Part shown: positions 4,004-58,750 of the stretch, piece after piece
Position numbering within the stretch: the stretch's first letter is position 1
How the letters are laid out: every line of letters starts with the position of its first letter
Assembly (NCBI GenBank): GCA_963924555.1
Contig: OZ004585.1
Span: 4,353,488 to 4,417,487, forward strand
Direction: 5' to 3'
Length of the DNA stretch: 64,000 nt
Source of the DNA: Crambe crambe
Taxonomy: Eukaryota > Porifera > Demospongiae > Poecilosclerida > Crambeidae
Notes under the pieces: model-generated
The model's database searches: none
What the model saw: the letters and a program-made list of their open reading frames with translations, nothing else
What the model was told of the DNA's origin: nothing
Translations under genes and position numbers: made by a program

Positions 4004-4337
4004 TTGGGTCAAATGGAGTTATTGGAAGCTGGAGTTTTATAGCTATGCTGTTTAACAAATTTCTAAAAGTCTATAGCATAGGCTGCCAATTATCGTCCAA
4101 GACGTGTTATCGACCACTACCGGTACATATTATCGATCACGTAGTATACGGAAATAACCTGAATGTTAACGGACATAAACGGGTAGACCATGCTTTCGTT
4201 TCGAGAAGGAGTAGTGTGGCTGAATGTATCTTCCTATTTCTTGCTTTTATTCTTTGTAATTGACGTTTATATTAGTAAGTTGACTTTAGAGATTGTATAT
4301 TTTCTCGATAGTTACCCGTTTTATTTTCAAAAATTCA

Positions 4338-6765
4338 TGGGTCGACCCAAAAAGCAGAAAACAGTAAAAAAACCTCTGTCCCCAAAAACCAACAACAGAC
4401 AGAAGAAAAGAAAGCAATGGACTGACCAGCAAATGATTTACGCCATGGAAGCAGTGTCAAATGGAACTTCCATGAACCAGGCAGCTATTATTCATGGTGT
4501 GCCACCATCCACACTTAAAGACAGAATGTCTGGACGAGTGCTTCATGGCAGCAAGCCTGGACCAGTCCCGTACTTAGCTCCAGAAGAAGAGGATGAATTG
4601 ATTGGGTACCTTCTGAAGGCTAGCCAGCTTGGGTATGGGAAGACTAGAAGACAGGTGAAAGAGATAGTTGAACGAGTTGCTACTACTAAAGGTATTCTGT
4701 GCTCTGAAAGTATCTCTGATGGATGGTGGAAACATTTTCTACAGAGGAATGGTAATATAGCTCTACGTTCTGGTAATGCCACTGCTCATGTAAGGATGAA
4801 AGCAACGAATAAGGAGAACATCGAACATAATTATTGAAAGAGATTTTCGATACGAATGACTTTGCTGCACATCCAGAACGAGTGTACAATATGAATGAGA
4901 GTGGGATGCCGTTGGATCCTAAACCTCCCAAGGTAGTTTCATTGAAAGGGCAGAAGAAGGTTGTCTATCGCACATCTGGGAAAAAGGGTCAAATCATGGT
5001 CTTGGGTTATGGCAGTGCTACAGGTCAGGCTCTCCCACCCCTTTTGATATTTGATGCAAAGCGGCTTAATCATCTCTGGACCCGAGGAGAAATTGTCGGT
5101 ACCAGATATGGCCTTAGCGATACTGGATGGACAGACCGAAAGTTTTTTTTGGCTGGTTGAAAAATCATTTCTTGACACATGCTGTGTCTGGACGGCCACT
5201 ACTCCTCCTAGTAGATGACCATAGCTCCCATTATGATCCTGAATGTATCAAGTATGCACGGAGTAAGTCGGTCATATTGTTCTGCCTTCCACCCCACACC
5301 ACTCATGTGGCGCAGCCTCTTGATGTTAGTTTGTTGTTTTTTTTAAGTCACTCAAGAGTAATTGGTGTGAAGTAACTCACACATTCTACCAAAAATCCAG
5401 GGGGAAAGTGATCACAAAGTATAATTTTGTTCAGCTATTTTCTGAAGCATGGATGGATGAATGCTACGACACCAGAAAACATCTGTTCTGGATTCCGTAA
5501 AACTGGAATTGTGCCTTTCAACCCGAATGCTCTCAACTCGCTGTATATGAAAAAGAATAACAAAGAATCAGAAAAGGAGAAAAAAGATGCAGAAAAAATA
5601 AGAATGACACAGAAAAGGAAACAAGAGTGAATGATGAAAACAAGAGTTGTGCACCAACCTTTACAGCAGTGCAACATGAACTCTATACCAGAAGATATGA
5701 AGAGGGATACGATCTGGTTGATGAACAGTACAGTTTATGGCTTCAAAAGTTTCACCCTGAAGAAGCAACTTGTTCCACCAGTGTGATTCCTGCAATCTCG
5801 GTTTCTCCCATATCCCTTGACCCCCATACAGTATCTCCGCTCACCACGACTCCACCTCCATTGCAGGTCATGTCTTCTCCATTGTCTCAGTTGACTCCAG
5901 CTTTTACTTCAGTTTCAGTTTCACCAATTGTATCCTCCCCCAGCCCCCTTCTGGCATCTTCAGACACCAGGACACCATTGGCTCCTGTACAAGTGACTCC
6001 ATCTCGTAGTCTAAATCCAAGTCATCCAGTTTCCCATATTGAATTCTCTCCCAACCCTATATCACCATCTCCATTAACTAGGAGTTCTGCTGCAGCTAGA
6101 ACATCATCTCCATCGGCACAAGATAAGTAGAATCAACCTATGGTCTCTGAGAGGCCTGCATCCATTCTTAGTATGCATCTTGATTCTTTAGATGATGTGG
6201 AACACTCAAAGCCTGTTCGAACAGGATGTGCAAGAGTATTGACCAGCAGTGAATGTTTGGAAGCACTAGTAGAGAAGAAGAAATAGAGTTAGAACTTAAA
6301 GAAACACGAAAGAAGGAACGTGAGCAGAAAAGAAAGGAAAAGGCAGAGCTTATGAAGCAGAAAAAAGGAGAGCGGGAATGTCAGCGAAAGAAAAAACTTG
6401 AAGCAGCAGCTGAAAAAAAGAGAAAGCGTCAAACTAAGAAGACTTCCAAAAGTACATCTACATCCATCTCAGCATTTACATCTATCCCTGCATCTACATC
6501 CATCCCATCTGTCCCTGCATCTACATCTATCCCATCTGTGTCTACATCCATTCCTGCATCTATATCCATCCTAGACAACACTGCTCCAGAGTAGGTGAAT
6601 GCAAGTGAAGAGTGTCTATTCTGCTTTGAAACTTACTGTAATGATGGACAAGACTGGATCCAGTGTGCCTGTGGCAATTGGATTCATGAAGATTGCTTGG
6701 AAGAATTATTTGTGGATTCCTTTGGTCAGGAAAGATTTTGTCCAACATGCATTAATATGATATAA
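4338..6765 (+). pseudogene. pogo/Tigger-type transposase, inactivated, with C-terminal zinc finger
   Basis: Transposase of the pogo/Tigger branch of the Tc1/mariner superfamily, on the plus strand. It starts at 4338 with a basic Lys-rich tail, then a Psq-type helix-turn-helix (WTDQQMIYAMEAV...NQAAIIHGVPPSTLKDR) and a CENP-B-like second DNA-binding half. The DDE core follows: NMNESGMPLD where families of this type normally have a catalytic Asp (here Asn), LLLLVDDHSSH for the second Asp, and HVAQPLD for the third. After a Ser/Thr/Pro-rich and a Lys/Glu-rich segment, 6595-6765 encodes a Cys/His finger (ECLFCF, CACGNWIHEDC, FCPTC). The frame breaks near 4830, in the T8 run near 5148 and near 5335, and stops interrupt it (6130, 6592), so it is dead. 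No clear terminal repeats found. Confidence 0.9.
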
Positions 6766-43821: not shown

Positions 43822-44941
43822 TCAATGATCATAAATGTTTTGGCCATATCTGTGAGTTGGCCTTCGGTTCCTTGTTGGATATCTCAATTGACCAGGCTGA
43901 CCATCACCTGATTCATTTCGTGGCCTCACAGTATCTCTTCGGGGGCTCACATCATGATGATCATCATCATCTTCGTCTTCCTCCTCTTCCTCAGGATGAA
44001 AATTTCCAGGATTAACTCTCTTGAATAGTGAAACATTTCTAGTGATATACTTTTTGTTGCTGTTATCATGGTACCTTTTTTTTCGAGTAACACGAAATGG
44101 TGCTGGGTCAAATCTGGTGGAAAATTTATTTTGTTTCTTCTGTCTAATGAGAACTATATCTCCAATATTGATATGTGAGATTGCAGCTCTTCGTTTCTGA
44201 TAAGCATATTTTTTCATTCGGTCCTTGGCTTTCTCATCTCTCTCTTGGATCACAGTGTCCTTTTCAGGGTCACCTCTGGATACCATTTGTGGAAGTTTTT
44301 GTTTTGATCTCTCTATTGAACAGCAATTTTGCAGGGGAGAATCCAGTTGTGGCATGTGGAGTCGCTCGATAGTTCAACAAAAAGATGTGGAGCTCTTTCT
44401 TCCAGTCCCTTCTTTCCATGTTGGCAGCACGAATGGATTTAGTTAGGGGCTTCATGAAATTTTCTGCTTCTGAATTGGCTTGAGGCAAAAGCGGTGTGAT
44501 TTGTTGGTGGTTTATTCCCCATTCATCCATGAAAGCTTTGAATTCGTGACTGGTAAAGGGTGGGCCATTGTCGGTTCTGACAACTCTTGGTATCCCATGG
44601 GTTGAGAAAATTCGTTCCAACTTCGATATTGTTCCTTTTGCTGCTGTGGATGAGACAACATCTACTTCAGGGAAACGTGAATACGCATCTATCACCACTA
44701 ATACATATTCCTCAGTCAGAAAGGGACCACAAAAATCCATGTGAACAGTGTGCCACAGCTCAGGTGGTAGTGGAGACATCTGTAGTGGATCAGGGTGACT
44801 TGCAGGACTGTTGGCTTGACAAGCCATGCAATTGTTGATCAGCTTCTTTACTTCTTCGTCAATTTTTGGAAACCATATCTTTTCTCGTAGCAGCTGTTTT
44901 GTCTTTACTAAGCCTTGATGACCTTCATGTGCAATAGACAT
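43822..44941 (-). pseudogene. Gypsy integrase and C-terminal tail
   Basis: Zinc-binding HHCC region (HEGHQG ... NNCMACQ), then the catalytic core with VHMDFCGPF, VRTDNGPPF and NSEAENF giving D, D and E. A second frame (44355-43822) continues with the integrase C-terminal domain (INIGDIVLIRQ, FDPAPFRVT) and an acidic EEEEDEDDDD tail. The change of frame near 44300 breaks the protein. Confidence 0.88.
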
Positions 44942-44947
44942 AGCTTG

Positions 44948-46478
44948 TTATTGTAGTGATAGTGGCATCACGATACGATTACCTCGTAGGATAATGTCGG
45001 CCTCTTCATTGACGGTTAGCTCATCTCTGATTCTGCTGAATGCCTTTAACTCTGCTATATTGACTCCTTCATCTTCCTCTTCTACTGATGTCCAGTCATC
45101 AGACCGGATTAGATTAGCCAATTTCTGGAGGGTGCAGTCAACTTTCGTCATCTGTTGTATCTCCACCAATGACATTGCCTTTGGTACAGCATGGGTGGAT
45201 AGAAACTTGATATAATCTTCAGCTATTCTTTCTTGCTTTTCTACAATCTCAGGACTAGGATGTCTGGACAAAAAATCTGATGGATTGTCTGCTCCTTTGG
45301 TGTGTAGTGCAGAGAAGTTGTAGTCTTGAAGACGGAGGTTCCACCTCTCAATATGGGCTGGTGTTTTCGATTTTTCGTTGTTCAGGATGAGTTCGATGGG
45401 TTTGCAATCCGTATGTAGGATAAAGTGGTCACCATACAGGTAGATGTGTAGGCGTTCTACTGCCCATACTATTGCCAGAGCTTCTCTTTTGGTTTGTGAA
45501 TACCATTGCTCTGCAGATGATAGAGATCTGCTGACATATGCAACAATTCTTCGATCATCTTTTCCTGGAGTGTGTTGTGATAGTATAGCTGATAATCCCC
45601 ATGGAGAAGCATCTGTAACAAGTTCTGTTTGCTTCTTTTTATCAAAATACGTCATCACCGTGTCACTGGTAAGGATTTCTTTCACTTTTTTGAAAGCAAC
45701 ATCTTCCTTCTCTGTCCATTTGAATCGTACGTTCTTCTTTGTGAGTTCTCTCAGGGGTTGAGTAATGTCACTGAACTTTGGCACAGTATGTCGCCATGCC
45801 GAGGAAGCTGCGAATACCCGTAGTAGATGTTGGAGGTGGAGCATCATGAATGGCTTGTACCTTTTGGGGATCAGGCGATATTCCCTTATCAGAGAACATG
45901 AAACCAAAGAATGATAGTGAATCTAGTGAATTTTTATTGAATGAACACTTTTCTTTGTTCAGTGTCAATTCACTGCTATTAAATTGTTCCAAAACAGCTC
46001 GTAGTGCATCGTCATGATTTTGTTTTGTTTTCCCAAATACGATCACATCGTCACTGATATTGAGAGTACCAGGAATGTCACGTAGCTGTTCACTAATGAT
46101 ATGTTGAAATAGCTCACTTGCCGAATTTGTGCCAAAATTGAGCCTTGTGTACCTCCGTAGACCCTTGTGTGTAGCGAAAGTCGTGATGTATCTGCTTTCT
46201 GGTGCCAGCGATATCTGATGGTAACCTGAGCATAAATCAAGCTTTGAGAAATGTGTTGCTCCATTTAGAACATGAATCAAATCGTCTATGGTTGGACTTG
46301 GATGACGTTCCCTGCGTATGGCCTTGTTGGGCATCCTCATATCAACACAGAGACGAATTTCCCCACTCTTCTTGGGAATTACAACTAACGGCGAGATCCA
46401 GGGAGTAGGTCCTTCAACTCTCTCAATGATGTTTTGTTGTTCCAACTTTTTCAGTTCAGCTGAAACTTTCTTCCTCAT
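44948..46478 (-). pseudogene. Gypsy reverse transcriptase and RNase H
   Basis: RT with WISPLVVIPKKSGEIRLCVD, FSKLDLCSGYHQISL, and the catalytic ISDDVIVFG box (the ISDD variant is common in this group). Then FFGFMFSDKGI and the connection. A frameshift near 45790 leads into RNase H with LVTDASPWGLSAILSQ and ALAIVWAVERLHIYLYG. The fold-critical residues are present; the frameshift makes it non-functional as a single protein. Confidence 0.9.
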
Positions 46479-47211
46479 GTGAAAGGGAATCTTGCGTGCG
46501 GGCTGAGCGACTGACTGTACGGCTTGGTCAATGTGTATAATTTTGCTTTGTAATCCTTGAGCTTTCCGATTCCTTTGAATACATTAGGGTACTGCTGCAC
46601 TAACTGATCACATCCTGTGACATTGTTGACTTTGACCTCTACGAGTCCAAGTTCTGAAGCTGTGTGATAACTCAAAAGTGAGCCGTGCAGACCCTTTACC
46701 ACATGGAGAGTGGCACTAATGCTATTACTTCCTGTTTCTAGAGTAGCATCAAATTTTCCAAGAATTGATAGTTGAGATCTCGAACCATATGCAAATAATC
46801 GAGCAGATGATTGTCGGAGTTCAATTTGCTCAGATTGGGTGATTTTTGCAAAGGCACCAGCGTCGATCGTCATTTTAATTGACACGCCTTCGACATTAAC
46901 AGTGTTTCTGGCACTTTTGGCTTACTGCCGTCTTGTTCTAATGTATACACATACTCCTCATCACTGCTGCTCGTTTGAGAAGATGGTTGAGGTTCTGCCA
47001 TGATCTGATGAATTTGAGAATTTGATTTTGATGATGAATGACTCGACTGTGGGTAATTTTTTTTACCATGCTTTTGACTGTCTGCTTTGTGACGAGATAA
47101 ACACACTTTTGCAAAATGATTAGGTTTCTTACAATTATGACAGACTTGACCTTGAGCTGCTTTGATATGCGGCCAAGTTAATCCACACTTGCGACACTTA
47201 TTTGGTTTCAC
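46475..47211 (-). pseudogene. Gypsy zinc knuckle and aspartic protease
   Basis: Two zinc fingers (CRKCGLTWPH and CHNCKKPNHFAKVC) followed by a protease whose active site reads IDAGA instead of the usual D-T/S-G-A, so it is probably inactive. A frame change separates the finger part (47211-46870) from the protease (46885-46475). Confidence 0.82.
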
Positions 47212-47369
47212 AGACTGAGATGAATGTGACTTGGGTGGTCTAGTGGACTGTCATTTTTGATGAATGCGATGTACATTCTCTGTGGTGGTATATACTGGGT
47301 TGAGAAGAATGCTCCATACCACTTGCCTGGCTTTCACTAGCCTCGAGTGCTCGGGCTTTTGACAACAAT

Positions 47370-47846
47370 TTATCCAGTGTCATCTCCTCTTTCCATAGAC
47401 CAAATCGTCGTAATCCTTTTCGACAAACAATGTTGAATAACAGCGGACTTCAGTTCTTTGTCCAGATTCTCGAACTCACAATGGGCAGCCAACTTTCGAA
47501 GACGGGTAACATACTGATCAGTTGTCTCTCCAGCCTGTTGAACAGCCTCCCTAAATTGAAAAATCTCATAGTCAACATTCTTTTTTGGTAGAAAGTAACC
47601 ATCCAGCTTTGCTAAAGCTGTTGTATAGTCATCTCCCGTATCAGGAAGAGTATCAAAGAGTTCTTGTGTTTCTTGTCCGGCTTGATATAGCAACAGAGCA
47701 CGTTTCTGCTTGTCTTCAGTTATGTTGAAAGCAGCCAAGTACGTTTCAAACCGACGCTTCCAACTTTTCCAACGTTGGCTCAAAGAGCTCGGGTCACTTA
47801 CAGGATCAAAAGGTGGGAGCGGAGTTACTTCAACTCTGCCAGCCAT
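47370..47846 (-). pseudogene. Gypsy gag-like N-terminal part
   Basis: Starts MAGRVEVTPLPPFDPVSDPS about 20 nt from the LTR. Contains WKSWKRRFETYLAAFN and QTTDQYVTRLRKLA-like capsid motifs typical of Ty3/Gypsy gag. The frame breaks near 47390 before the zinc knuckles. Confidence 0.82.
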
Positions 47847-49116: not shown

Positions 49117-50458
49117 TTGGCTGTCAATAGTGCTCCCCCTCTGACTACTTTTACTGGCGAAGATGTAGAGTCTGAAGACAATAATTTTGATACATGGCTT
49201 GAGCGATTTACTGAACGTGCTAGTTTGTTACACTGGTCAGAAGAACAACAGCTCTATCAGTTAAAACAGCATCTAGATAAGACAGCTCTAAGGGCCTTTC
49301 AGCTTTTCACTCCAGAGCAACGTGATTCTTTTACAAGTGCAGTTGCAGCACTCAAAAAGAGATTTAAGCGAGTAGACATAGAGGAACTCAGGGGTTTGGA
49401 GTTCCATCAATGTATGCAGTCGCAGGAATCGGTGGAACAGCTGGGTCTAGATTTGATGTCTTTAGTGCAGCAGGAGTTTCCTATATAGTTTGGGAGGCAC
49501 AGAACGTGATTGGTTGCTTAAGGGTCGGTTTTTCCAAGCTTTACTTCCAAAATGGCAACGGAAACTTGGGGCTCCGAAGGTTTCTGAAACTTTTAGTGAC
49601 TTGTACGAAAGAGCTCGGACTTGTGAACGGCACAGTCAGCAGTTTGGTTTCAACAGAGAGCCAGGGAAGACAAAACCTAGGTCTGTCACACCTTCAGACT
49701 AAGACAACCACGTGGAACATTCTAACAAACCACGTAATGTCAAATGTTTTTTGTGTGGAATGGTTGGCCACATGAAGAGAGATTGTCCACAGAAAACTGA
49801 GACAAAAGCTGATAGGAGTGAAGCACCTGGCAAACATAGCTCAAAGCCAACGATTAGTACAGCTACCGTAGGGGTATCTGAGGCTAGTCTTGACCCCACT
49901 CCACTCTTTGATGGTTTTTCTGACGAGCAACTGGAAGCAGCATTAACAGCTAGGAGGTGTAGCAAGGAGCAGAGTTTATTGTGTAATAGTGAGATTAGCA
50001 CAGTTATAGCTCAGGGTAATGCTTCAGCTGTTGGGCCAACACTAGTGCTTGAGGTTAGCATAGAGGGTGTACTGGTTTCATCTATGGTGGACACGGGATC
50101 TCAGTGCAGTATTATTTCAAGGAACATGCTGCAGAGTATAGGCAAACATTTAAAAGGTCAAGGGAAAGATTGGCCAAAGTTGCAACCAGCATCAGCAAAG
50201 CTGTATGGTAAAGATGGGAAAACAGGTGGGCATGAATTGGATATTACAGCCCAGATCACATTCACAGTGGAGGCAGATGGTGTTTCTGTCCCTGTACTTT
50301 TCTTTATCCAACCAGATAGCACTCAGCCATGCTTACTTGGCATGAATGCCTTACCAGCATTAGGGTTGTCTTTCTTGAATGCTAAGGGAAAACCCTTGCA
50401 GACGGTAGGACAGTCAATAAGGATATCTGCAAGAGTTAGCTTGATTGATTGTAAGTCA
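49117..50458 (+). pseudogene. retroelement gag-protease relic, left part
   Basis: Plus strand. A capsid-like N-terminus (FDTWLERFTERASLLHWSEE, LKQHLDKTALRAFQLF) is broken by a frame change near 49488. It continues in frame 2 with an in-frame stop (49700), then a CCHC knuckle (CFLCGMVGHMKRDC) and an aspartic protease (SMVDTGSQCSIIS ... CLLGMNALPALGLSF), whose DTGS site is intact. No reverse transcriptase follows. The reading frame is interrupted at 50458 by the 8.3-kb transposon and resumes at 58751. Family: Ty3/Gypsy- or BEL-like, unresolved. Confidence 0.85.
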
Positions 50459-50498
50459 AACCTCTTCCGATTTCAGTGGAGAAATTCCGATTCTGATT
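50459..50498 (+). repeat. left terminal inverted repeat
   Basis: AACCTCTTCCGATTTCAGTG, then GAGAAATTCCGATTCTG. Immediately inside are ATGGATGAAAT (50503), TTTCATCCATAG (near 50533) and TTGGATGAAAC (50554), putative subterminal binding sites. Confidence 0.9.
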
Positions 50499-50667
50499 TT
50501 TCTATGGATGAAATTGAAGTAATTTGCTTATTTTCATCCATAGCTTGAAATCATTGGATGAAACTGACTATTTTTGGTTATTTTAATCCATACCACAGGA
50601 ATATATATTTTAGGTCATAAAAAGTATATAACTAGCTATTAGCCTTTTAGCTACAACACAAAAATAA

Positions 50668-53600
50668 TTAATCATGATCAGTCTTCGAAATGTCTGCCTT
50701 CATGCGTACTGCCCTTTCTCCTGATACAATAACATTTCTTGATTCTTCAAGAAGTTGTTTCACTACTCCAGCTGCATTAGAAATAATGATGTCCTATTAA
50801 TTACTTCCAACAATTTTTCTTGTTTACAAGAGCATGGAATAGGGACTGCATGATAATTTCCACCAGATTAGCCAAGTGTTTTGGCGGATGGGAAATTTCC
50901 ACCAGATAAGGCCAAGTGCTTTTGGTGGATAGGAAATTTCCATCAGATTAGGCCAACTGGGTGGGAAATTTCCACCAGATAAGGCCAAGTGCTTTTGGTG
51001 GATAGGAAATTTTCACCAGATTAAGCCAACTGGGTGGGAAATTTCCACCAGATTTAAGTGCTTTTGGTGGATGGGAAATTTCTACCAGAGCAGGCCTATA
51101 GTAATTTCCACCAGATGCAGACTTGAGTTTTGATGGATGGAAAATTTCTACCAGATTCAAGTACTTTTTGGTGGATGTGAAATTTCCACCAGAGCAGACC
51201 TAGTAGTTTCCACCAGATGCAGACTGGAGTTTTGGTGGATCACCAGAGCAGGCCTATAGCAATTTCCACCAGATGCAGGCTTGAGTTTTGGTGGATGGGA
51301 AATTTCTTTTGGTGGATGGGAAATTTCCACCAGATTCAAGTGCTTTGGTGGATGGGAAATTTCCACCAGAGCAGGCTAGATTAATTTCTACCGTACCAGG
51401 CTAGGGCTAGGGACTTGATAACTGGTATATAGCTACAGGCTTGGATTCAACTATAATCTTTATTGTCAATCTTTTTTAAATAGAGTACTAACCTGATATA
51501 TTATCCAATAAAAGTATATAATCCTCCTCTGTTGTATAATATTGTGTCATATCCATGAAATAGTCCTCAAATATATTATTTGAAGATAAGGACTTCATAC
51601 CCTTGTTAGATGCTGCAACTATAAGTGGTTGTACAACTGACTTCAAAAGAGGACCTACATATGCAAGAATGAAGTCCTGTCTAGCATTATAGTGCCAGTA
51701 TTTTATATAATGACAGTAGATAGTTCTAGACAGTATATCGAACCTTGGGTTGGGGGCTTTTTAATCCAGTAGCAGCATTGAGCCAGCCATTGTGCCTCCT
51801 GAAACTCTTTCATTACTGATTTAATATCTTCTGGTGGTGAGGATAGAGCTACAACAAAGTTAGGGCCATTGCAGGAGGTTTGCATTCCTCGACAAAAACG
51901 GATGAATTCATTCACCTATAGTGGAGTTATTAGCTATGCTACTATAATAATGGTGGAATTGTGAGCATACCGAGAATCTGGATCCAACAGAAGCAAATAT
52001 TAAACTGAATCCACAAAAGCCAGGGACGTGCTTACATAAAATTGAGTAAGTTATATCAGTGGGATTGTCGTAATCGAACAGAATGCACTTTACTCTGAGC
52101 CCATCTTTTTGAATGACTATAGAATCTGGATTGTCAGTATCATTTTTGCTGGTCATTGCTTTCCTGCAGTAAGCAAGGAAGTCAGAAGAGGGTGTGTTTT
52201 TTGAACCGAATGCCTTTCCAGCGAATTCTCTGAAGCGATCTTCAGTAGCATGGTATGGAAATTGTTCCTGTGCTTCTTTCCAGGTCTTTAATCCAGTCTG
52301 CTTTACAAACTCCAACTTCATACCATTCATATCCTTTATTTTTTTACATTCTAATGGCAACTTCTTCAATTCTATTTCTTTCGTAATCACTTTATCAAGT
52401 AGCTGTCCAACTAACTCATCTGAGAGTCCCCTGAGACCCTTAAAGTGGAAAGAAGCACATTCCGGTCTCCCAGACAAGAGACCTTGTTTGGTCTTAGGAA
52501 TTTTGCAAAGCTTTCCGGCTTCAAATAATTGGTAAATGTGAGTGATTCGGCTGTAGTTTTCCTTTTTTAAGCCAGCAAGAAAGAATACCAGGTTTTCTTC
52601 TAATTTTTTTTTCTGCAAAAATGCATACATATGTACATAATAATAGCACAATCATGAAAATTTGCTACTTACTGGAACTAAGAGAGTCTCTTCACAAGAT
52701 TTTCTCCACTCAGTGGTACGCTCTGGAGTTGGTCCATCCAGGGGTACCTTCTGTAATGTATACAGTCTGATACGACTCAACTGAATCTGTAATAATAACA
52801 AATGAGCTTGTATTAATAGGGTGGGCAGCTGTCGCTTACTTTATCCTGAGTCAGCATCTTATTAGTGAATTCTGTAGCTCTGTTGTGTCGTAATGATAAA
52901 TGTTGAGCTTCTTCATCTGTAATGGTATTGCTGTAAACACTAACAGTTCTGAATCGATATGTATCTGGTAAACGTGTATTCGATTCCAAAAGCTCACGTA
53001 GCGCTATTCTAGAATGATTTCCACCGATGGTTTCATACACATATGCCTCTGGATGTTTTTTGTCATATTCTTCATCATCTTTGAGGTGGACTACACCTAT
53101 AAGTGGAGCAACATTACTTGTGGGGTTATTCAGCATTTCATCTTTTAGTGCCTTTACATACTCCAGATTAGGATCACGGACAAGACGTGATGCACGTGGT
53201 TCAATTAAACATTTAACTGGAATATTGAAGAGACCTGTGAAAAATAATGTAAGTGCACATAACTATTGGAAGTCCTACCCTTCATGGGACTATAGGATAG
53301 GATGGACATGATATGGAAAGTCTTATGGACCATCTCTGGGATATGTGGGATTGTTGCATGTACCACACTCATAAAATATCTGGTTGGTACTCTTACAGTG
53401 GAACCTTTATAGAGGACTAAAATCACCCACTTACGTAGCACATAATGATTGTAACAGAGCATGAAAACATGCGACAGACAAATTAAAGGTTCTGATTTTA
53501 GACCTGACCCTAATATGTATGCACTTACCGATAAATTTCTCAGCAATTATAAAGTCGATATCCTTTGATGCATCTTCAGAATGAATTCGGCGCTTCTTAG

Positions 53601-54142
53601 CACTAGGTTCACTAGAGAGTGACTCATCACAGGAGAATGAAGTACCAGGGTCTTGTGAGGTATCAGATATTTGATTGCAGGAGAGATTACGAGTAGATTC
53701 GTTGGAAGTTTGAGGTGTGTATACACCAGTTATAGGAGCTATATATGGTTGTATGTGTTGCTTCCATTGATCCACAAATTGCTTGGCAGAATTAACATGC
53801 TTGAAAATCATGCTTAAAGCATTGCTTCTGAAATTAAATCTGGCTAGCCTCAGTGGTTTTGGCTGATGCAAACCACAGGCTTTGAACTGCAAAACGGGAT
53901 AAGTCACTGTTAGTAGTCGAATCTTAGATGTTTATAACTAGCTAACTTATTCATATAAAGGGTATAATACTTACTACAACATAGTCTTTTCCATCATGAG
54001 TGTATGGCCTCACATCATGGACCCACTCGATGTCTGGGCGTGTTCCTTCTTTGAAGTTTCCTTCAACTTTTAGCTGCTGGTTATTCTTATATATATATAT
54101 CGATCCTTGGTGCTCTAGATACCATGATCCAGAGGAACTCAT
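50668..54142 (-). CDS. ParB-like-domain protein encoded by the transposon
   Basis: Minus-strand gene, exons 54142-53975, 53886-53529, 53234-52840, 52786-52673, 52612-51971, 51915-51493 and 50771-50668; all GT-AG. The first 175 residues include Ser-rich and basic stretches (AKKRRIHSED). Exon 3 (about 176-307) reads like a ParB/sulfiredoxin-type domain: FNIPVKCLIEPRASRLVRDP, VAPLIGVV, then YETIGGNHSRIALREL (where ParB has a G-E-R-R/G-H-R box) and TDEEAQHLSLRHN. The rest (about 425 residues) is unfamiliar; VVALSSPPED followed by WIKK faintly recalls motif IV of N6-adenine methyltransferases, but I would not rely on it. Six exons are phase-consistent; 51915-51493 needs a 1-base shift near the A5/C5 run at about 51760, so this copy is probably frameshifted. 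Expected length about 734 residues. Likely a DNA-binding partner of the transposase. Confidence 0.8.
50850..51400. repeat. palindromic minisatellite inside the transposon
   Basis: About ten irregular units built on GGTGGATGGGAAATTTCCAC CAGA. The core is itself nearly palindromic (GGTGGA ... TCCACC around GGAAATTTCC). Spacers carry GGCCAAGTGCTTTT or GCAGACTTGAGTTTT. It lies in the last intron of the ParB-like gene, 390 bp from the left terminus. Confidence 0.85.
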
Positions 54143-54462
54143 GATGATATCTAAAACAAATTCATTGCAAGAAAAATAACTGCTAGCAGACTCTAGCTGG
54201 CAAGTAATCTTGACATTTACTTTGAACTTAGAGCTCTTTTATAAAGTTTATAATACTTACCAATTCTCTATCCAACATGTGCTCGCTGCAGGAATATTCC
54301 AGTTTCTAGAATTTTCTCATTTGAATCAGCACAATTATGTCATTTCCTTATAAAGTCATTTTAATCAGCACTAGGAATTTTCATTTTATTTTCAAAGATT
54401 TCTTTTGTGCCATAGCTATAATAATGCTATAGCTATATAGCTAGCTAACTGATTTCTCAAGC
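54143..54462. promoter_or_regulatory. shared bidirectional promoter interval of the transposon
   Basis: The 320-bp stretch between the two divergent start codons. AT-rich, with AGCTATATAGCTAGCTAACT just before the plus-strand ATG. It must hold both promoters unless untranslated exons extend elsewhere. No certain TATA box. Confidence 0.55.
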
Positions 54463-57400
54463 ATGGATAGTCCTGATAGTCTGTTACCCTTTGTGGAGTT
54501 TGATCAGCTCAACTCGTCAGATTCCAGTGTTCCTGGTGTGAATTTTGATGACTTGGAAAATTCTAACTCTTCTTGGACAAGTATTCCATGTCCAGACTTC
54601 GAATCAATTGCATCTGGTCAGGAACATTGCTTACCATTGACTTCTACACCAAATGTGACTGGTGCTTCCTGTCCAAAAAGAAAGCTAGACTTCTGTCATT
54701 GTAAGACTATATAGACTAAATCTATGCATGGACCTATTTTATGTTGCTTGTTGCTTTAGCTATTACTCGTTGCTTTATTATTTACTTAGCTGTACAAAAG
54801 AAGTTTAAGAAACCCATCAGACTGGATGAATCAAATCATTCACCAAATTATTCACCAACAGAGTTGGATATAGGTACGTAGGTTGTGTACTGATTATAGT
54901 AGGGAGGGAATACTATGAAGAATAAACATTAGCTTTAACAAGACTGTCCACACACTTGTGGCCATATATGCCCTCAAATGCACTAGAGCAATGCAGATAA
55001 TAATTACTCTACAAGTGCTTCATTCTTTGACAATATTATACTCGTAGATTCTTCTTGCTCATCGTTTTATGGTTGGGATTGGATGAAGATATGGACAATG
55101 GATGGTTGTAGTTATAATTGTGTACAGTTAGTACACAAACTTTCTATTCCTGATATCTTAACCTACCATAATTTATTCTCCCTACAACCACAATCTCTCA
55201 AGAAGCAATGGCTCCTTGATTATTTTCAAATGAACACGCAAAGTAGCTCAGAGACAAATCATTCTGTATGCGGCCAACCAGTTTGCTATCAGGTGTGGTT
55301 AAGTATTCTTGGAATAAGTCAGTCCTATTACTACAAAGTCCGGTCATTATTCAAAAGTGGTGTTGTGAAGAGAAATACTCAGGTAAGTTAGTTTTCTGCT
55401 TTGTCAGCTTGTGGTTTAATTATGTGTGCTCATCAGCTCATGTGTGTTGTGCTTTGTCAGCTAGCTAGTGGGTTCTAGGTTTTATTGATTGCATTATATA
55501 GATACCACATTCACCTCTTCAACGAACACGAGAAGCATTTGGTTGGTTGGCTTCATTCATCGAGTTAATGGGGGATCAGATGCCTAACAGCTTAATTATC
55601 CATTTGCCAAGCAGTATGACCAAAGTACAAATTTACCAGAGATTGGTCGAGGATCTGACTAAACGAGGAAAATCAAACATAATTTCACAGTCTCACTTCT
55701 TTGACATTTGGAAAAAACACTTCAGTCATGTTACTATTCCTAAGGTAATTGGGGATTTGGCGGGAGCAAAATGAGGGATGTACCAATGCAGACAAGGTTT
55801 ATAGGGGGGATCATTATTATGCCTACATACAATACCTTCAAGCATCTACGTACATATAAGCTTTGTATATTTGTATTATTATTATTACAGGAAAATAGAT
55901 TCACTAAGTGTGATGTCTGTACCATGGTAAAAAGGGAATTAGAAAAGACAATAGACTCTGTAAAGAGAGGGGAATTGAAGAGTGTGCTTGCTGAGCACAA
56001 CAAACTCCAGATGTAAGTCCAATAGCTATGCATGTTGCTAAATAAGCTTGCATGGGCCAGGCACTATATTGTCTGGGGAGATGCCAAAGTAATACAAAAT
56101 CAACTTTCAAATAAAATTAGAACAATAACACTATGTGTGATCTAAGTGTGAATCATTGATCTAGGCGAAATAATATGTTAACACCTGTCTCTTTCCCACA
56201 GTCTTTCCTGAGTCATGATTTAGGCATGATCATTTCAGTATCTGAAATCACATTGGGGTTATTGGGCCAAACTGGGCTGGCTGGGTTAGGTTATTAGGGC
56301 TGGGAACAAAATATTATTAATAAAATCCCCACCATGTTTCTAATTTTCATAATATAGGGAGCAGAGACAGCGATACCATACCTTACGTGAGAAGGCAGAG
56401 ACGGACAGATCTATCATGTCTATCATACTGGATGGTATGGACCAAAATGCCACCAATCTTCCTCACTTGAAGAGATTTAATAAATCTGCTGTCAATCTTT
56501 GGCATATGAGAACACACATCACAGGGGTCATCATCCATGGTCATGGGTCATATGCATACACAGACCTGCTACAGTGGCCTCATGATCCAAATTTGACCAT
56601 GAATATTTTGACTAGAGTTCTATTGCGGAGATTTTTGGAGCTTATTAATAGCAATAGTCACCTACCAAAGAAACTCTATCTTCAACTTGACAACTGCATG
56701 CGTGAAAACAAAAATCGTCATGTATTGGGTTTCCTTGGTCTATTGGTGCAGGAACAAGTGTTTGAAGAGGTATTGAGGACAATTTAGTTTTAATGAAAAT
56801 AATTAAGAACATGTTATCTTTCAGATAGAACTTGGATTTCTAATGGTTGGACACACCCATGAAGATATTGATGCTTTATTCGGAAATATTAGCCAATGGC
56901 TAAAAAGGAATGATGCTTTCACTCTTCATGGTACGTCCCTACTAATAAAAATAGCTAAGGTGCATAACAGTCTTGGCAAGGCACCAGAGTCTTTACTAAC
57001 AATCTTTGGCATGCAGATATGTTCAAAGGTTGCAAGGATGCAAACCAAGGAATGAAGGATACCATTCTACTTCCACAGATGTATGATGTGAAGTCCTGGC
57101 TAGATCCAGTTCTCAGCAAGCTTCATAATCATTCACATCCACATGTGTTCAAATTTGTTAGGGATTGCAAGGGCAGCTCACGGATGTTTTATAAGAACTG
57201 GAGTAAAGATCAATGGCTACCAGAAGATAGTCCTGGAATTTCTCTATTGCAGGTAGATATACATTATGTTTCAGTAACTCTCACTGTTACTGACTCCCTA
57301 TAACTTTATATGTAAATCAAGATTACGTCATTTATTTTACAACATACCAGGCTAGCCCAAGTGGCATACCAGGACTTGTACATCCCAAAGGTGAAAAGCT

Positions 57401-58437
57401 TGATTTACCCCATCTGAAACGGGACATTCCAAAATATGCAATATCCAATATGAGCCCAGATGCAATGGAATGGTGGAACACATTTATTTGTCGAATGGAG
57501 GAATCTCTTGAAGTTACTACCACAGCTATAATTTGGCCTTTTGCCGAGCTTCTTGAAGTCATTCAAGAGGCTGTAGCAGCAAACAACCAAGTAGCACTAA
57601 CTGAACAACCAAGTCTTCCAGCTGAACTCCTAAAATTGAGATTAGCTGAGGTTGATCAAATTCCAGAGGTATGCATAAACATAGCTATTCTCTGGATTGT
57701 GGCTTAAATAATGGTCCTAAGCTTACCGAAACTATTTTTCTTTTACAATAGCTATTTACTTACAGCCAGCTTAGTTAAGTTTGGTAACATGGAAATTTCC
57801 ATTTATGCAACAGGTAAATATACAAACAAGTATTTTGGAAATTTCCATGCTACCAATCTGCAAAACTGTTAGCTAGCTATCTGAATTCATTTTGTAGGTG
57901 TATACTGGAAATTATAGACACAAGGAGAAAACAAAATCTACTCAGAAACCCACCAGTAGTGCTTCTTCCACTCAATCAGCAAGGAAGAAATCTACTGAAA
58001 CACCTACCAGTAGTGCTCAATCAAGGAAGAAATCTACTCAAACACCTGCTTCTCCCACTCAAGTGGCAGCCAGGAAAGTACCTACCAGCATCCCTCAGAA
58101 ATCTGCTTCTCGAAGGAGTACAAGAAGAAACAGCCACACTTCCAACACTGTTACAAGATCTTGTTCAGAGTCAGACTTTATTGCATTCCGGCACCCTTCT
58201 TGGAGTGATAAGCCCTTAATAGGACACATTGTTGCAGTTAAAAAGGAGACAGTCACTATACATTGGTGGATTGGGAGGTATGTAGGCAGTTGGAAGGAGT
58301 GTACAAAAGATGGCGAACCCTGGCTAGAAGATATTCCAAATGACTCGATAATTCACAGATTTTCATGGAATACCACTGCTACTAACAATAGGCTCACTAA
58401 AGACCATGTTACTGCAATAAAAAAATCATATAGCTAA
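54463..58437 (+). CDS. DUF7869-like transposase of the 8.3-kb transposon
   Basis: Plus-strand gene with ten exons: 54463-54700, 54790-54873, 55048-55382, 55502-55744, 55891-56012, 56358-56769, 56825-56930, 57017-57252, 57351-57668, 57898-58437. All introns are GT-AG, phases match, and the total is 2,634 nt (877 residues), with no stop or shift. The N-terminal 110 residues are acidic/Ser-rich. A helix-turn-helix-like segment (VCYQVWLSILGISQSYYYKV) is at about 183-202, and C307/C310 form a CxxC. The core (341-513) has LDGMDQN (D366/D369), YLQLDNCMRENKNR (D452, E457) and VGHTHEDIDALF (E491, D492, D494), the order expected of an RNase-H/DDE-type nuclease and matching what I recall of Pfam DUF7869. 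A Lys/Ser/Thr linker (705-790) leads to a compact C-terminal region with VTIHWWIGRYVGSWKEC, possibly SH3/Tudor-like. It appears intact. Confidence 0.9.
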
Positions 58438-58446
58438 ATATGCTTA

Positions 58447-58452
58447 AATAAA
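58447..58452 (+). terminator. polyadenylation signal of the transposase gene
   Basis: AATAAA ten bases after the stop codon. Confidence 0.6.
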
Positions 58453-58489
58453 AAGAATCAATCATTCTGATATGAGATTTCTAAATTTA

Positions 58490-58746
58490 AATGATTTCAT
58501 CATAAGCTGAATTTTGTATGATGGAATTAAGAATTTTAGGAAGATTTCATCAATACTCTTATTCAGATGAAATATATCGATTTCATCATACTATGGACTA
58601 ATTTTCCCTACATCTACACAATATCCAGCTTATTCGTGATCAAAATGGATAAAAATCATTGAATTTTATAAAATGTATGATGAAATTGGGGCAAAATACC
58701 AAATTTATCAGAAATCAGAAATTCTCCAATGAAATCGGAAGAGGTT
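58490..58746 (-). repeat. right terminal inverted repeat and subterminal repeats
   Basis: The terminus (reverse strand from 58746) is AACCTCTTCCGATTTCATTG. Inside, ATTTCATC or its complement GATGAAAT occurs at about 58494, 58544, 58567, 58580 and 58678, with related words near 58519 and 58646; the left end has the same word. Likely transposase-binding subterminal repeats. Confidence 0.85.
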
Positions 58747-58750
58747 GTCA

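Follow-up and report, generated by a model that had tools for sequence, protein, structure and literature searches.

A complete, probably Sola1-type DNA transposon with a DUF7869 transposase and a divergent ParB-like gene in the sponge Crambe crambe

The stretch analysed here, referred to as the window, comprises 64,000 nucleotides of the genome of the demosponge Crambe crambe (GenBank assembly GCA_963924555.1, contig OZ004585.1, positions 4,353,488 to 4,417,487 of the forward strand). Positions 50459-58746 of the window are occupied by a complete DNA transposon of the cut-and-paste type, 8288 bp long, which carries two divergent genes: one on the plus strand with a product that belongs to the Pfam family DUF7869, and a companion on the minus strand with a predicted ParB-like product. 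The same borders had been proposed in a sequence-only reading of this DNA and were confirmed.

The element ends in terminal inverted repeats (TIRs) of 34 nt with 31/34 identical positions, against 26/34 for the best of 200,000 pairs of random 34-mers drawn from the window; repeats of 35 bp had been reported, and of that description the presence stood and the length did not. Insertion was shown directly by two paralogous loci that have the uninterrupted site with a single GTCA. On the same contig, the left flank matches C8:4615589-4616045, ending at the last GTCA base, and the right flank matches C8:4616042-4616349, starting at the first GTCA base (98% in both cases), so that the four bases of GTCA, and no others, are common to both matches. 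The second empty site (C3:1696211-1696242 and 1696239-1696308, 97% each) has the same 4-base overlap, and the GTCA noted earlier on both sides of the element is thus borne out as a 4-bp target site duplication (TSD). Removal of the element together with one GTCA leaves the host frame open, in agreement with the claim of an insertion into a foreign reading frame. This target, an open frame at 49712-50458, has motifs that resemble, by eye, zinc knuckles and an aspartic protease of retroelement type, and a paralog 98% identical to it lies about 212 kb further on the same contig. A 25-nt TIR pattern allowing up to 3 mismatches found no match in the whole 143-Mb genome beyond the element's own two ends. 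By this test the family consists of one copy, and the earlier description of the element as apparently recent was not confirmed; TIR identity was discarded as a clock, being invalid for DNA transposons.

The plus-strand frame runs without a stop through 877 residues with GT-AG splice sites, and the ten exons, D366/D369, D452 and the HTHEDID block (residues 488-494) of the sequence-only reading were all reproduced. The Pfam check assigned the protein to DUF7869 (PF25273, E 4.9e-69) with a score of 232.2 bits against a curated cut-off of 26. The positions of D366, D452 and D494 are kept in 49 aligned relatives, and an AlphaFold model of one relative (P0001) contains the expected RNase H-type core, with aspartates at the three catalytic places that correspond to D366, D452 and D494. 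D369 was considered as the first catalytic residue; D366 was preferred as it matches the first-strand residue of the model, both places being invariant. The DUF7869 protein is very probably a transposase with a triad of aspartates (DDD) that moves the element. The predicted fold and the order of the three acidic residues are those of mariner Mos1/Metnase and of retroviral integrases, whereas identity to the DUF7869 core is 7-13% in the aligned rows listed; mariner duplicates a 2-bp TA, compared with the 4 bp of the window element. Foldseek returned no match at E <= 0.001 in PDB or viral structures for the model of the transposase relative. A homologue search yielded 336 relatives, and among the matches listed (the best 120 of the 336) the nearest named one is cnidarian. 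Three DUF7869 relatives (P0039, P0041 and P0050), two of them from Saccostrea and one from Branchiostoma, have in addition PF02338 (OTU) or PF02902 (Ulp1-type) protease domains. DUF7869 is not mentioned in the literature searched.

Table 1. Coordinates of the transposon features in the window
Feature	Position	Strand	Basis
Left TSD, GTCA	50455..50458	.	single GTCA at two paralogous empty sites
Left TIR, start 5'-AACCTCTTCC	50459..50492	+	repeat search (91%), 31/34 match
Frame with putative last companion exon, exon border by eye	50671..50793	-	ORF list
Degenerate tandem repeat, probably within companion intron	50855..51400	.	repeat search
Companion, putative continuation in other frame (KAPNPRFDILSRTIY...)	51491..51760	-	ORF list, gene model
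Companion exon 6, 3' end putative; frame break or missed intron nearby	51744..51915	-	gene model
Companion exon 5; similarity to fern ParB-methyltransferase proteins stops within	51971..52612	-	gene model, alignment
Companion exon 4	52673..52786	-	gene model
Companion exon 3, ParB N-domain-like core (IGGNHSRIA)	52840..53234	-	alignments, fold of relative
Companion exon 2	53529..53886	-	gene model
Companion exon 1, start ATG	53975..54142	-	gene model
Transposase exon 1, start ATG	54463..54700	+	gene model
Transposase exon 2	54790..54873	+	gene model
Transposase exon 3	55048..55382	+	gene model
Transposase exon 4	55502..55744	+	gene model
Transposase exon 5, CxxC invariant in 49 aligned relatives	55891..56012	+	gene model, alignment
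Transposase exon 6; codons D366 56431-56433, D452 56689-56691	56358..56769	+	gene model, alignment, model
Transposase exon 7; HTHEDID, third Asp D494 codon 56870-56872	56825..56930	+	gene model, alignment, model
Transposase exon 8	57017..57252	+	gene model
Transposase exon 9	57351..57668	+	gene model
Transposase exon 10 and stop; C-terminal BAH/SH3-like domain, ~residues 785-877	57898..58437	+	gene model, alignments
Right TIR	58713..58746	-	repeat search, TIR pattern, 31/34 match
Right TSD, GTCA	58747..58750	.	read in sequence

The genome-wide search came out in favour of the earlier reading, although the ends of the window element recur in no other copy. DUF7869 matches were located in 47 stretches of the genome, 46 of them above the cut-off (one gene may yield several stretches), and in none of 14 control genomes. 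Five or more kinds of ends occur among the DUF7869 elements of this genome, and four kinds besides that of the window element were compared: AACATAGTCC, GTGTA, GGGCCG and GGGGCATGG. For AACATAGTCC there were 17 pattern matches; all five strict pairs have an exact TSD (C10 TTAA, C14 TAGC, C16 ACCA, C16 TATA, C18 TGTA), neither of the two looser pairs does (C10 TTTT/TTTG, C8 ATAA/TATT), and five single ends were excluded from the TSD count. The 10 matches to GTGTA form four pairs, three exact (ATAT, ATTT, ATAT) and one inexact on C3 (ATAT/ATCG), two single ends being dropped, while the duplications are ATTT and AAAT at GGGCCG ends and ATAT and ATAT at GGGGCATGG ends. Exact 4-bp TSDs therefore flank 13 of the 16 two-ended DUF7869 copies examined in the genome, the window copy included. 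As the exact border in the palindromic cases (ATAT, TATA, TTAA) is chosen by the duplication itself, the argument from TSDs is carried by the non-palindromic GTCA, TAGC, ACCA, TGTA, ATTT and AAAT. With such varied ends and this proportion of exact duplications, DUF7869 is a transposase domain.

The AACATAGTCC family shares DUF7869, TIRs and a 4-bp TSD with the window element, and transposase segments of at least 50 residues are 28-39% identical between them. In their main blocks, three of its copies agree to 93.8-99.9%, which indicates that the family moved fairly recently. An internally deleted copy of 701 bp, resembling a miniature inverted-repeat transposable element, lies at C18:3203494-3204194 (TSD TGTA). 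In another copy, at C14:4263470-4276119 (TSD TAGC), the ends are 12.65 kb apart, compared with about 8.5 kb on C10, and this copy probably holds a further insertion.

These results bear on the alternative that the DUF7869 protein is a domesticated host protein flanked by inverted repeats that are incidental. Many named homologues among the matches listed are called 'uncharacterized protein', the coding sequence is split into 10 exons, and the ends of this element are found in no other copy, all of which would suit a host gene. At this locus, however, that reading is ruled out by the empty sites with a single GTCA; related DUF7869 elements elsewhere sit between TIRs and 4-bp duplications of their own, and one such family includes the internally deleted copy just described. 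We regard a host protein as extremely improbable, and the earlier identification of DUF7869 as a transposase is upheld on the same evidence.

The elements with GTGTA, GGGCCG and GGGGCATGG ends resemble the window element in DUF7869, TIRs and 4-bp TSD, and differ in being short (about 2.4-2.7 kb) with one long frame. Their AT-rich 4-bp duplications were seen at L011, L013 and L014 and at loci on C13, C6, C1 and C5; L011 and L013 have the motif GHT(K/R)FSPD and their proteins end in what looks by eye like a zinc-knuckle motif. In a midpoint-rooted tree of 32 core domains, P0001 is the partner of the window protein (100/100). The seven rows from short elements of this genome are split from the remaining 25 (100/98), and among these seven L007 has a long branch. 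The short group may, as a guess, be another division of Sola.

For the companion, the second of the two divergent spliced genes proposed earlier, the gene model has six exons separated by five GT-AG introns, and its frame breaks, or an intron was missed, near 51750-51765. A search with the companion protein gave no match at E <= 0.001 among 7995 candidates scored, and its kinship was found solely via fern-like contigs, with the companions of which it aligns at E 3.6e-12 (hhalign). The model of one fern relative (P0127) has a ParB fold, and exon 3 of the window gene is one row of its alignment. Foldseek on this model placed a ParB as the best PDB row at E 0.0013, with none at E <= 0.001. Judged by alignment and predicted fold, the companion gene encodes a ParB-like protein, and its arrangement with the transposase gene is conserved. 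When sequence profiles of PDB were searched with the alignment of the companions, three marginal matches came up (E 0.015-0.018), which were taken as chance. Among viral contigs 40 stretches matched a pattern, none of which was confirmed as a relative.

Five fern-like contigs (L045, L048, L050, L051 and L053) have, as in the window, a DUF7869-type transposase and a divergent ParB gene. L053 has 34-nt TIRs starting 5'-AAC and a C-terminal domain similar by eye to that of the window protein; unlike the window, its single pair of ends has no exact TSD (0/1), and ends were looked for and not found in the other four. The fern-like partner protein has methyltransferase motifs (by Pfam in L050, where they are those of an N4/N6 DNA methyltransferase, and by eye in L048 and L053) that are not recognisable in the window companion, the scanned pieces of which gave no Pfam match. 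These contigs belong to the Trichormus bin CAKZGI01 (L045-L051, L053), which is filed under a cyanobacterium; as the fern-like transposon genes in it have introns, the bin probably includes contaminating eukaryotic sequence. Separately, L036 has a 125-nt near-perfect palindrome (98%) at 5725-6005, close to where it lacks a ParB part present in L034.

The apparent break in the companion raises the possibility that the element is a dead relic, no longer mobile, in which the transposase still reads through. The single copy and the frame break near 51750 speak for this, whereas the 877-residue frame has no stop and GT-AG splice sites, an overlooked intron or an assembly error may account for the break, and the companion may be dispensable, given that the short elements are too small for a second gene. 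We consider a relic possible and, on balance, unlikely.

Sola elements are described as having a DDD transposase, a 4-bp TSD, a length mostly of 2-9 kb and variable ends with TIRs of 11-1124 bp (PMC10741241); by that description the window element is alike in its DDD triad, 4-bp TSD, size of 8288 bp and TIRs of 34 nt. Sola1-1_Ec32 of Ectocarpus, an element of the Sola-1 class, has an opposite-strand partner of 1104 aa with ParB-like and DNA methyltransferase domains (PMC12477816). The layout of transposase and opposite-strand ParB-like gene is shared with the window, although the Ectocarpus element measures 21.5 kb against 8.3 kb and its methyltransferase domain is not recognisable in the window partner. 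Hence we assign the element to the Sola1 kind, as a complete and autonomous-looking copy with a DDD transposase of the DUF7869 type and a ParB-type accessory, at a probability of about 0.85; the assignment follows from the fit of TSD, triad and gene pair to published descriptions. Given the same matches in TSD, triad and opposite-strand ParB gene, the novelty of the kind that the sequence-only reading had entertained is not supported.

Alternatively, the DUF7869 elements could form an unnamed DDD superfamily that resembles Sola in TSD length and triad only, with ParB gained independently by both. In favour of this, the link to Sola is one by published description, the termini of the DUF7869 families differ widely, and the short intronless and the long groups fall into separate clades (100/98). 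Against this, an opposite-strand ParB/methyltransferase gene beside the transposase is the very layout of Ectocarpus Sola1-1, and DDD, 4-bp TSD and variable termini are all published Sola traits. A separate superfamily thus appears improbable. Membership of piggyBac or Kolobok was rejected, as the duplications (GTCA in the window; TTAA, TAGC, ACCA, TATA and TGTA in the AACATAGTCC family) do not follow a TTAA rule; Kolobok mostly duplicates TTAA, KolobokP differing, and a signature C/DxxH between the second D and the last E is given for hAT, MuDR, P, Kolobok and Dada (PMC9587614). Sola is not mentioned in PMC3706591, and PMC4455052, PMC10294476, PMC12695648 and PMC12314368 served as background only.

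Elsewhere in the window, minus-strand frames at 43822-47846 resemble by eye a Gypsy-type retroelement (gag, reverse transcriptase, integrase), and an open frame at 4190-4837 has the look of a pogo/CENP-B-like helix-turn-helix.

For a Sola1-type element, the DUF7869 transposase would bind the 34-nt inverted ends and excise the element by double-strand cutting via D366, D452 and D494 of its RNase H-type core. Joining to the target with a 4-base stagger, followed by repair, would leave a 4-bp duplication of no fixed sequence, here GTCA. Chromatin reading or the binding of a partner is the probable task of the C-terminal BAH/SH3-like domain. The ParB accessory, by analogy with bacterial ParB, may be loaded onto the DNA of the element itself and spread from there, as a DNA clamp or a mark of the element.

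This C-terminal domain (window 58156-58434) shares homology with the C-terminal end of the human cohesin loader NIPBL (profile E 3.4e-20). It is found in DUF7869 transposases of this genome, cnidarians, echinoderms, hemichordates, molluscs, one nemertean and one arthropod, with a likely counterpart in the fern copy, and NIPBL is the only solved protein found with it. A Pfam scan of 15 transposase tails gave weak, scattered matches only. Used as a query on the genome, the human NIPBL tail found this element and one other stretch, C106:10169-10363 (L062); one human query has little power to detect a host NIPBL that carries the tail. The homology suggests that the C-terminal domain of NIPBL descends from the tail of a DUF7869/Sola1-type transposase, an origin that we favour by a small margin of confidence. 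A literature search for a link between NIPBL and transposases found none among the matches listed, and such a link may still have been published.

A Pfam domain of unknown function is thereby given one, DUF7869 marking a DNA transposase, and many predicted genes labelled uncharacterized (336 relatives) may be transposon genes. The ParB accessory, published for algal transposons, is now seen in animal and fern elements, and as the methyltransferase is not recognisable in the animal copy, the roles of ParB and of methylation become separable for testing. The link to NIPBL proposes, in a specific form that can be tested, where part of a human protein of chromosome architecture came from; if true, it would mean that such a core protein had captured the tail of a transposase.
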